Shown here: in pieces, positions 26,137-28,383 of the stretch
How positions within the stretch are numbered: the first letter of the stretch is position 1
Layout of the letters: each line of letters starts with the position of its first letter
DNA from: a bacterium
GTDB taxonomy: Bacteria > Patescibacteriota > CG2-30-54-11
Assembly (NCBI GenBank): GCA_029573015.1
Contig: JAKQHK010000135.1
Span: 1 to 33,151 of the forward strand
Direction: 5' to 3'
Length of the DNA: 33,151 nucleotides
Translations under genes and position numbers: made by a program
Notes under the pieces: generated by a model
The model's input: only the letters and a program-made list of their open reading frames with translations
Told to the model about the DNA's origin: nothing
The model's database searches: none

Positions 26137-26931
26137 TCAACGGACAAGCAAACGCGCCTGCTCATACGCTGCCTGCACGGCAGCAGCGCAATGCTCCTGG
26201 CACCCCAGATCATCAAGCCTGGCCAGGGCCGCTGCTGTGGTACCTCCTTTCGAGGTTACCTGCCGGCGCAACTCGCTGACATCCAGGGCGCTCTCTGCAA
26301 GAAGGGACGCAGCGCCGATACATGTCTGCCGAGCCAGCTCGTAACTTGTTTGCAGATCAAGCCCAAGATCAGCGCCGGCCTTGGCAAGAGCTTCAACCAA
26401 ATAGAAAAAGTATGCCGGTCCGCTGCCGCTGACAGCGGTAACCCTATCAATATCAGCCTCCTGCTCGAATCTGATCTGTTTACCGAAGCTTGCAAGCATG
26501 GTCTGCACCATAGCCCGTTCGTCAACAGTAACCTCAGGGCTTGCATACCATCCGGTCATTCCCTTGCCGATCCGGGCTGGAGTATTGGGCATGGCGCGTA
26601 CCACTTTTGCCGACATATCCTTAAGCGATGTTTTTATGGTCATACTTGATACGCCCGCAGCGATAGATATCCAGAGCTTCCCCTCTATCTGTGTATCAGC
26701 AAGCGGTTGCAGTAATTTCGCCAGCACCTGGGGCTTGACCGCAAGCAGGATGATGTCAGCCTCATTCACTGCCTGTCGCAGGTCAGATGTTATCTGACAG
26801 TCAAATGCCTTTAACTTATCCTGATCCGTATCGCACGCGATCAGATCATTGCGGGAGAATACGCGGGTGTGCAGCAGGGACTGCAGGATTGCCCCTCCCA
26901 TGTTCCCGACACCGATTATGGCTGTTTTCAT
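26137..26931 (-). CDS. proC: pyrroline-5-carboxylate reductase
   Basis: P5C reductase (264 aa), which reduces pyrroline-5-carboxylate to proline with NAD(P)H. It has the Rossmann motif IIGVGNMGGA (5-14), ILLAVKPQVL (61-70), RAMPNTPARIGKGMTGW and the signature VSGSGPAYFFYLVEALAKAGADLGL, followed by QVTSKGGTTAAAL. No proA or proB is in the window, so P5C may come from elsewhere (ornithine or scavenging) or the genes lie outside. It begins about 25 nt after the attenuator hairpin of the T-box leader and is followed 69 bp later by proS. Confidence 0.96.
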   Translation of the reverse strand: MKTAIIGVGNMGGAILQSLLHTRVFSRNDLIACDTDQDKLKAFDCQITSDLRQAVNEADIILLAVKPQVLAKLLQPLADTQIEGKLWISIAAGVSSMTIKTSLKDMSAKVVRAMPNTPARIGKGMTGWYASPEVTVDERAMVQTMLASFGKQIRFEQEADIDRVTAVSGSGPAYFFYLVEALAKAGADLGLDLQTSYELARQTCIGAASLLAESALDVSELRRQVTSKGGTTAAALARLDDLGCQEHCAAAVQAAYEQARLLVR

Positions 26932-26955: not shown

Positions 26956-26988
26956 AAAAAAACCCTCATCCGCCGAAGGACGAGGGTT
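26956..26988 (-). terminator. T-box attenuator (intrinsic terminator)
   Basis: On the minus strand AACCCTCGTCC pairs with GGATGAGGGTT around a short loop and is followed by seven T. Its 5' arm is shared with the T-box antiterminator, giving the expected mutually exclusive structures. Confidence 0.92.
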
Positions 26989-27143
26989 CCCGTGGTACCA
27001 CCTTGATTGTTCATGTGAAATGAACGCTTGATGCTGCTAAAGGAGCAACCCTTACTGCTGCGGGGTGGGGGTGACAGATACTGTTGATTTTCACTGTTTT
27101 CAACTCACTGCGGTTTTCTGTCCCGTGATCCCGCCTGTCACTC
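26956..27143 (-). promoter_or_regulatory. T-box riboswitch, proline (CCC) specifier, transcription-attenuation type
   Basis: The leader lies between the lemA stop and proC. The T-box core reads AAGGTGGTACCACGGG (27004-26989), and the antiterminator 3' side CCTCGTCCTT (26985-26976) pairs back to AAGG and to CGGG. Upstream, the distal stem I segment AGTGAGTTGA...GTGAAAATCAAC matches the AGNGAG / GTG-A loop pattern. I fold the base of stem I as GCGGG (27134-27130) with CCCGC, then an internal loop, then GACAGA with TCTGTC. The 3' side of that loop is ACCCCCA, so the codon before the conserved purine is CCC (27069-27067), a proline codon. A hairpin GTTCAT/ATGAAC (stem III) precedes the core. A competing 7-bp pairing GTGACAG/CTGTCAC also exists. 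Uncharged tRNA-Pro should turn on proC-proS and perhaps the mre genes. Confidence 0.92.
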
Positions 27144-27177: not shown

Positions 27178-27756
27178 TTACTGAGCAGGTTTTTCTTCGG
27201 TCTTGGGAGCGTCGCTGAAGCTTACTTTGACTGCTTCCCGGGCTGCTTCCTCTGCTTCAAAGAACTCCTCGGCCTTGAAACCAAACATCCCAGCGATTAA
27301 TACCGTGGGGAATACCTGGATCTTGGTATTGTAATCGAGAACATTGGTATTGTAGAACTGACGGGCATAGGCAATTTTATCCTCAGTATCGGAAAGTTCC
27401 GACTGCAGCTGCTGGAAATTCGCCTGTGCCTTGAGGTCAGGATACGCTTCCGCTACCGCGAACAAGCTTTTCAGGGCACCGGTCAGCATGTTATTAGCTT
27501 CTGCCTGCTCGGCAACGCTGCCGCCCGCCATAGCCGCAGTGCGTGCTTTGGTCACATTTTCAAAAACTGTTTTTTCGTGAGAAGCATAACCTTTGACTGT
27601 TTCCACGAGATTGGGGATGAGATCAAAACGCCGTTTCAGCTGTACGTCAATACCTGCCCAGGCTTCCTTGACCCGCATGCGGGCTGTAACCAGACCGTTG
27701 TACGTCAACCAGAGGAACACTACAATTACGCCAATGATACCAAGTACCCAAACCAT
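27178..27756 (-). CDS. lemA: LemA family membrane protein
   Basis: LemA (192 aa). A single N-terminal TM helix ([22 protein letters not shown]) precedes a helical domain with the family hallmarks: [35 protein letters not shown] (27-61), the alanine-rich [39 protein letters not shown] and a charged tail. N-terminus out / C-terminus cytoplasmic topology is reported for the family, but its role is not established. No adjacent htpX or TPM-domain gene is present, although such partners are frequent. AAGGAG lies six bases before the ATG. Its stop is about 30 nt upstream of the T-box. Confidence 0.95.
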
Positions 27757-27869: not shown

Positions 27870-27984
27870 TAATGAGCTCCTGCGAGTAAACGAGCCGTAG
27901 AGCGAATAATGAGACCCTACGAGCCTCTGTGAGTAGATGGACGAATTATCCCGAAGCCGAAAGGCTGAGGGGTTGAACCTGTAA
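27870..27984. repeat. 115-bp direct repeat, copy 1
   Basis: This copy matches 28189-28303 with five mismatches, all in the first third, and the last 82 bases are identical. It contains an internal hairpin with a GAAA tetraloop (AAGCC GAAA GGCT) flanked by CCC/GGG, and ends GGTTGAACCTGTAA. No tRNA-derived sequence flanks this copy. Confidence 0.95.
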
Positions 27985-28016: not shown

Positions 28017-28043
28017 GTCCCGTAAATCTCTGATTTACGGGAC
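28017..28043. repeat. perfect 12-bp palindrome
   Basis: GTCCCGTAAATC (28017-28028), a 3-nt loop TCT, and GATTTACGGGAC (28032-28043), with no mismatch. There is no T run on either side, so it is not a standard terminator. The form resembles REP-type palindromes recognised by Y1 (RAYT) transposases, but none is in the window. Confidence 0.85.
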
Positions 28044-28129
28044 ACACATTTCTAAGCTCATTGTCAGTAGACAACTCGCTTAAAAGCTAAGTGGCGAGCC
28101 AGCCGAAGCAAAGTAATAGGCTAGTGCAT

Positions 28130-28170
28130 GCCTTCGCATCAAGCTTCGTCGGGCATCCTTCTGCGAAGGC
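28130..28170. repeat. 9-bp inverted repeat with 23-nt loop
   Basis: GCCTTCGCA (28130-28138) and TGCGAAGGC (28162-28170) are perfect complements. The structure abuts the displaced tRNA-Thr 3' end that starts at 28171. Confidence 0.7.
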
Positions 28171-28189
28171 TGGAGCCGCCCATCGGAGT
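28171..28189 (-). repeat. displaced 19-bp copy of the tRNA-Thr 3' end
   Basis: TGGAGCCGCCCATCGGAGT on the plus strand is identical to 28308-28326, which is the CCA, discriminator, 3' acceptor strand and part of the T arm of tRNA-Thr. Duplication of a tRNA 3' end is the typical trace of tyrosine-recombinase integration. The interval to the intact tRNA is only 118 bp and consists almost wholly of repeat copy 2. Confidence 0.85.
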
Positions 28190-28303
28190 AATGAGATCCG
28201 GCGAGTAAACGAGCAGTTGATCGAATAATGAGACCCTACGAGCCTCTGTGAGTAGATGGACGAATTATCCCGAAGCCGAAAGGCTGAGGGGTTGAACCTG
28301 TAA
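28189..28303. repeat. 115-bp direct repeat, copy 2
   Basis: Second copy of the repeat at 27870-27984, same orientation, 110 of 115 positions identical and no gaps. It fills the space between the displaced tRNA fragment and the true 3' end of tRNA-Thr, so it resembles a minimal element bounded by 19-bp direct repeats. Confidence 0.95.
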
Positions 28304-28307
28304 GACG

Positions 28308-28383
28308 TGGAGCCGCCCATCGGAGTTGAACCGACGACCGACGGTTTACGAAACCGTTGCTCTACCAACTGAGCTAGGGCGGC
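28308..28383 (-). tRNA. tRNA-Thr, anticodon CGT
   Basis: A full cloverleaf reads on the minus strand: acceptor GCCGCCC with GGGCGGC, D arm GCTC...GAGC, anticodon stem ACGGT/ACCGT with loop TTCGTAA (anticodon CGT, reads ACG), T stem GTCGG/CCGAT with loop TTCAACT, discriminator T and an encoded CCA. It lies six bases downstream of tRNA-Gly. Confidence 0.96.

Follow-up and report, generated by a model that had tools for sequence, protein, structure and literature searches.

Broken copies of tRNA ends beside GIY-YIG nuclease genes suggest a selfish element family at bacterial tRNA genes

Broken copies of tRNA ends, filled with hairpins and often with a small nuclease gene between the copy and the intact tRNA, suggest a selfish family of elements that invades tRNA genes and leaves the tRNA working. 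The tRNA-Thr(CGT) locus described here appears to be a scar of this kind from which the enzyme gene is missing. It lies in a window of 33,151 nucleotides that represents the whole of contig C103 of a 1.35-Mb genome (140 contigs, 69% complete), and it is compared below with the corresponding loci of two family relatives (Ca. Wirthbacteria), G001 and G002. What the sequences establish is an arrangement: copies of a tRNA's own end on its own strand, breaks of these copies at loops with inserted sequence, a nuclease gene between copy and tRNA, and a locus without the copy in the relatives. We hold, with modest confidence, that the window carries an ORF-less scar of a selfish, tRNA-targeting GIY-YIG element family of the homing type, which would enter at the loops of the tRNA arms while a working tRNA is kept.

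The tRNA-Thr(CGT) locus in the window

The initial annotation had described an exact 19-bp copy of the 3' end of tRNA-Thr lying 118 bp beyond the intact tRNA, with the interval almost exactly filled by one 115-bp repeat unit, and both descriptions hold. The sequence TGGAGCCGCCCATCGGAGT occurs as the 19-nt fragment and again at 28308-28326, where it forms the 3' end of tRNA-Thr(CGT) including the CCA. The 118-bp gap contains one 115-bp unit, which is identical to a second unit at 110 of 115 positions and overlaps the 19-nt fragment by one base (Table 1). When the window was shuffled in two-base blocks, exact 19-mer repeats at most 400 bp apart were present in none of 200 shuffled windows, as against 65 positions in the real window, most of which are taken to come from the 115-bp unit. 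Tandem Repeats Finder reported zero repeats in the window, and Rfam at its gathering thresholds returned no family for the region; the two 115-bp copies gave weak Rfam matches to lncRNAs, which were discounted as chance.

Table 1. Features of the tRNA-Thr(CGT) locus, with positions numbered along the window
Feature	Position	Strand	Basis
Intact tRNA-Thr(CGT)	28308-28383	-	ARAGORN; Rfam RF00005, 67 bits
tRNA-Thr 3'-end copy, 19 nt, spanning T-loop to CCA	28171-28189	-	Sequence match; flank comparison
118-bp insert, from intact tRNA to its end copy	28190-28307	.	Sequence; flank comparison with two relatives
115-bp hairpin unit, copy 1	28189-28303	+	Repeat match
115-bp hairpin unit, second copy, without tRNA end	27870-27984	+	96% identical to copy 1
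GA/GA-mismatch hairpin 1, outer stem imperfect at the window site	28189-28232	+	Row of hairpin alignment A1
GA/GA-mismatch hairpin 2, CTAC-GA-..-GA-GTAG	28226-28271	+	Covariance model R1, 2.7e-12; own sequence among the model's inputs
Hairpin 3, CCC-GA-AGCC-GAAA-GGCT-GA-GGGG	28269-28291	+	Sequence reading; fold
Opposite-strand hairpin of the GA/GA style, past the fragment	28052-28083	-	Sequence reading alone
GCTTCGGCTGGC..GCCAC module, 3' of the fragment in the window	28090-28120	-	Flank alignment to two relatives
Next gene along the tRNA strand	27178-27756	-	ORF list

In all three genomes, tRNA-Thr(CGT) is flanked by tRNA-Gly(CCC) and, on its other side, by an ORF that in the window (27178-27756) we take to be LemA-like; an ORF of this type also starts 3' of the tRNA in both relatives. 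The end copy is present in the window's genome only, and the copy-less loci of G001 and G002 represent the empty sites envisaged in the initial annotation. The GCTTCGGCTGGC..GCCAC module adjoins the 19-nt fragment in the window, but in G001 and G002 alike its neighbour is the intact tRNA-Thr(CGT) (0 of 500 shuffles in each comparison), and the 118-bp insert has no similarity to the relatives' post-tRNA flanks, the scores being reached by 315 of 500 and 180 of 500 shuffles. Read in the orientation of the tRNA, the 19-nt fragment is probably followed by the native downstream flank. Since the module is also found 3' of other tRNAs in the window's genome, it is weak proof of orthology, and the flank alignments support, rather than prove, an insertion of 137 bp between tRNA-Thr(CGT) and its old flank. 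The tRNA-like sequence past the insert (GGTTCAAC) extends for 8 nt only, a rejoin matched by 16% of controls, so that the window alone is no proof of a split T-arm; the two 19-mers, being identical, do not tell which tRNA end is foreign. No GIY-YIG ORF is present in the window.

Other sequences lie around the locus. A module with the arrangement CCA-GCCTTCGC...GCTTCGGCTGGC is positioned directly 3' of several tRNA ends (28090-28170 in the window; 569-640 and 875-963 in L153), with a terminator or an older scar as candidate roles. Between the flank of the fragment and the second 115-bp unit is a perfect palindrome, CCCGTAAATC-TCT-GATTTACGGG, at 28019-28041. A T-box leader match at 26973-27140 on the minus strand (41.8 bits, under the Rfam gathering score of 93; E = 2e-7) is found just upstream of an ORF at 26137-26931 that we read as proC.

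Split copies, hairpins and nuclease genes at other tRNAs

An end copy was defined as an exact match of at least 12 nt to a tRNA's own 3' or 5' end, on the same strand and within 600 bp, and in a swap control each tRNA was compared with flanks belonging to tRNAs of different amino-acid specificity. By this definition, 17 of 31 tRNAs in the window's genome have a copy of their own end (swap control, 2 of 882), as do 9 of the 34 tRNAs examined in G002, where 45 hits exist (1 of 1072), and 6 of the 32 tRNAs examined in G001, where 33 hits exist (0 of 938). Copies on the opposite strand were found at none of the 97 tRNAs of the three genomes. Both controls confirm that end copies are far above chance. 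The copy-bearing tRNAs differ among the three genomes, being partly other tRNAs in the relatives, and related units near further tRNAs and the tmRNA bear out the suggestion that copies would recur beside other tRNA genes. G001 and Candidatus Wirthbacteria CG2_30_54_11 have one exact 500-bp stretch in common (L273, L253), which places the host in that organism's family.

In our own tally of 53 copies, the break points of the 25 5' copies fall in the D-arm (21), the anticodon loop (3) and the T-loop (1), and those of the 28 3' copies in the T-loop (19), the T-stem or acceptor (6) and elsewhere (3). The ends of the copies are exact and the remainder is variable. The insert is often a palindrome, after which the same tRNA resumes; resumption over at least 9 nt is seen in 21 of 52 copies, compared with 1.9% of control comparisons. 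For instance, tRNA-Ala(TGC) has two hairpins in its upstream D-loop copy and two in its downstream T-loop copy, the upstream pseudo-copy of tRNA-Lys(CTT) is interrupted in both the D- and the T-loop, and the tRNA-Gly(TCC) copy of G002 is split in the anticodon loop, with split copies also clear at tRNA-Trp and tRNA-Asn of named genomes. By folding energy, the inserted 50 nt do no better than the flanks of copy-less tRNAs, as 20 of 52 copies reached p<=0.05 versus 104 of 223 such flanks, in control rows that were not deduplicated. Hairpins, by this test, are common beside all tRNAs of these genomes. Scoring for perfect stems is uninformative because many of the hairpins carry GA mismatches.

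The clearest sign of a native tRNA-Thr apparently split by an element that carries a complete tRNA is found at L343 (1395-1990). Here, a tRNA-Thr with palindromes in the D-, anticodon- and T-loops surrounds both a GIY-YIG gene and another, intact tRNA-Thr; the outer acceptor halves, AGCCGTCC and GGACGGCT, pair with one another, and the inner tRNA has different ones (GCCGCCC/GGGCGGC). Among 18 listed loci of the phylum, scored where a tRNA was present, end copies with mismatches were tested against shuffles; L343, L347, L353, L362 and L365 were clear cases, L359 and L361 marginal ones, and no such copy was marked at L349, L351, L352, L354, L355, L356, L364 and L366.

The GIY-YIG proteins encoded at these loci are single domains of some 80-90 aa; one of 82 aa is encoded beside tRNA-Pro(TGG) on C60 and one of 79 aa beside tRNA-Cys on C33 of G001. 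PF01541 scored above its cut-off in all four proteins scanned from related elements, for which NCBIfam returned no match. In the three family genomes, 12 of the 17 small GIY-YIG genes, a number that leaves out two UvrC matches, are located at most 500 bp from a tRNA or tmRNA, with binomial P values per genome of 2.7e-5, 9.2e-7 and 1.1e-5 if a flat density is assumed. A profile search of 192 phylum genomes picked up small GIY-YIG genes in 136, and when the best GIY-YIG loci of 27 other phylum genomes were considered, 18 of the 27 were no farther than 500 bp from a tRNA or tmRNA. A wider scan yielded 70 loci from Microgenomates, Omnitrophota, Wirthbacteria, Dojkabacteria, Magasanikbacteria, Roizmanbacteria, Dependentiae, Hydrothermota and other groups, 12 of them within 500 bp of a tRNA and 58 with no tRNA that near. 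All 42 near genes are on the strand of the tRNA. Where a tRNA has both a near GIY-YIG gene and an exact copy, the nuclease gene is flanked by the split copy on one side and the intact tRNA on the other in 15 of 19 cases, the four exceptions being at L260 (two tRNAs), L346 and L358, and the same order of copy, GIY-YIG gene and tRNA also occurs in Omnitrophota, Dojkabacteria, Magasanikbacteria and Hydrothermota. In the window's genome, 4 of the 17 copy-bearing tRNAs have a GIY-YIG gene within about 500 bp. A GIY-YIG gene adjoins the tmRNA in G002 (L249) and at L281 and L354.

The 115-bp unit is composed of hairpins whose helices are parted by tandem GA/GA mismatches. In an alignment of eight such hairpins from three contigs (seven distinct rows), 95% of cells pair, compared with at most 51% for slid structures, and 10 changes on both sides, at 5 of 15 pairs, were matched by 0 of 500 shuffles in a control that keeps relatedness in, the structure being drawn from the same sequences. 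The hairpin family has multiple dispersed copies in the window's genome, as evidenced by 13 matches to covariance model R1 with E < 1e-4, several of which are, or overlap, training sequences of the model (contigs C34, C105, C60, C103, C3, C41, C85 and C44). At these matches are tRNA-Val(CAC), tRNA-Val(GAC), tRNA-Pro(CGG), tRNA-Leu(TAA), tRNA-Thr(CGT) and the tmRNA, and the copied end adjoins the hairpin at each; a weaker match (E 0.79) is beside tRNA-Thr(GGT). No tRNA was called near the match on C44 or near the contig-end matches on C105 and C41. In the case of C44 (L138, 1501-1543), no tRNA was called within 1.5 kb of the hairpin, and the GA/GA hairpin is therefore not strictly tied to tRNAs. 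At the tmRNA itself (L137 920-1443, on C85), a 16-nt copy of its own 3' end is joined to a GA/GA hairpin. A DNA search of 59 genomes found the 115-bp unit in the window's genome only, and 112 stretches of viral contigs matching a 14-mer of the hairpin were discarded as being at about the chance level for a 14-mer.

How the split copies may have arisen

As a homing-type element, the nuclease would cut the tRNA gene near a loop, and repair off a homologous copy bearing the element would introduce the nuclease gene along with a replacement part of the tRNA. A palindrome in the displaced native end would shield it from renewed cutting, and subsequent loss of the nuclease gene would leave the scar in place. 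At the window site, the original 3' end would have been displaced to 28171-28189; the intact tRNA would now end in the replacement, and two units of GA/GA hairpins would be left behind. Some findings count against homing. The intact tRNA keeps the presumed target in most elements, a sparing that would be accounted for by a recognition site extending into the native flank. The window has no GIY-YIG ORF, nor do 13 of the 17 copy-bearing tRNAs of its genome have one within about 500 bp; to these may be added the 8-nt rejoin, the null folding test, the flanking module as weak proof of orthology, the 4 of 19 exceptions to the order of parts and the 58 of 70 loci away from tRNAs.

A bolder possibility, about which we are doubtful, is that these elements represent a natural bacterial form of cleave-and-rescue, whereby a mini-nuclease would be directed against essential tRNA genes, the elements would carry a rescue tRNA or tRNA end, and palindromes in the loops would block recutting of the native halves. 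The scars would then be inherited resistance alleles, which would explain end copies at over half of the examined tRNAs of the window's genome.

The hairpin-rich flanks of tRNAs could have been duplicated passively in tandem, or by slippage during replication, with the GIY-YIG genes as unrelated passengers, but this is in our estimation an unlikely source of the copies. In its favour, there are tandem arrays, with three units at tRNA-Asn and two at tRNA-Ala, the upstream flank of tRNA-Ala(CGC) is duplicated in G002, and the flanks of copy-less tRNAs fold strongly too. However, the split points are at arm loops, the GIY-YIG genes have their position and strand with respect to the tRNA, and a like arrangement occurs in several phyla.

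We give still less credence to the split copies being functional RNA, in which tRNA-like arms and extended hairpins would pair among themselves or with the intact tRNA and serve in regulation or processing or as a decoy. The exact ends and variable remainder of the copies are consistent with a function of this kind, as are the paired changes in the GA/GA hairpins (10 cells). In addition, seven 3' copies, hand-picked for a common GAGAAG motif, have retained a stem covarying with the T-stem of their own tRNA, with 4 of 6 pairs changed on both sides and 0 of 500 shuffles matching the number of both-changed cells. Yet the GA strand and the tRNA strand are opposites in the window and coincide at tRNA-Val(CAC), so that no single RNA reading fits all, and the copies come and go between relatives.

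In the initial annotation, the locus was a candidate for a collapsed integrative element of the tyrosine-recombinase type, or for an array of att sites, at the tRNA 3' end. The idea of something that inserts at the ends of tRNAs, and has other copies as well as empty sites, is supported; the tyrosine-recombinase att-site part is rejected as improbable. Integration by tyrosine recombinases displaces the tRNA end and keeps an intact tRNA, as here, and direct repeats of the tRNA 3' end from T-loop to CCA are reminiscent of att cores. Two tyrosine recombinases (PF00589) are encoded in the genome, one of them, on C2, near tRNA-Thr(GGT) and its copy. Against this, 5' ends and anticodon parts are copied too, the hairpins sit inside the tRNA copies, and the enzyme gene between copy and tRNA is GIY-YIG in the 15 of 19 cases described above. 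The PF00589 matches are on C2 and C50 only, with none in the window or its element, and the C2 protein is Xer-like by our reading. A different enzyme would be at work, and we know of no 5' or anticodon splits with hairpins in tyrosine-recombinase integration at tRNAs. Movement of the hairpins by a Y1 (IS200/REP-type) transposase, for which single-strand hairpins are typical substrates and of which the genome has three Y1_Tnp matches (C14, C73 and C132), is rejected as the least credible, since these contigs have no R1 hairpin match and Y1-type elements, to our knowledge, do not duplicate target ends.

If the homing-type reading is correct, the small GIY-YIG genes found by profile in the phylum gain a likely target and lifestyle, and the odd hairpins and tRNA pieces at CPR tRNAs would be scars of repeated attacks on tRNA genes. 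Such elements would also provide a natural model for cleave-and-rescue drives, open to in vitro testing.

Comparison with known systems

Mitochondrial double-hairpin, or repetitive hairpin, elements are short and sometimes consist of two hairpins side by side, as seen here; we know of no tie between them and split tRNA copies or a nuclease gene. No description of split copies together with GIY-YIG genes at tRNAs was found in a search of open-access journal papers that relied mostly on titles and abstract openings.

The insertions in CPR rRNA genes are alike in their CPR hosts, their GIY-YIG ORFs, their many short ORF-less insertions and their positions at the tops or bases of stem-loops; the GIY-YIG ORFs are reported not to be carried by introns and, it seems, not to take part in homing (PMC11270868). 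Unlike the tRNA elements, they are in rRNA, and the main text of that paper never mentions 'tRNA' and, as far as its accessible part goes, describes no duplicated gene ends (PMC11270868).

SegB of phages T4 and T6 is a free-standing GIY-YIG homing endonuclease beside tRNA genes (PMC13096335; PMC2988022). According to the accessible part of the account, the T6 enzyme cuts inside tRNA genes at the motif RAWTSGAAC and drives amplification by recombination (PMC13096335); we read this motif as the complement of a T-loop and count it in favour of the homing-type reading. In contrast to the elements considered here, SegB is found with phage tRNA arrays, and the same part of the account describes no palindrome-bearing split tRNA copies (PMC13096335). 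The tRNA-element proteins also differ from SegB in being single domains of about 80-90 aa.

Gene-end replacement at tRNAs would resemble that by the mobile ORFs of fungal mitochondria, which replace the ends of Glomus atp6, atp9, cox2 and nad3 and of Allomyces atp6 (PMC3630166). As would be the case at tRNAs, an endonuclease ORF is there accompanied by a replacement end in an essential gene, and the native end is displaced past the ORF. The fungal ORFs, as far as the accessible part of the paper describes them, are in protein genes, and the atp6 case is of the LAGLIDADG type (PMC3630166), whereas the tRNA elements have GIY-YIG genes, reside in tRNA genes, involve 5' as well as 3' ends, place palindromes in the displaced end and leave many ORF-less scars. 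If the homing-type reading holds, these elements would represent, in bacteria and at tRNAs, a counterpart to the mobile ORFs that replace gene ends in fungal mitochondria.
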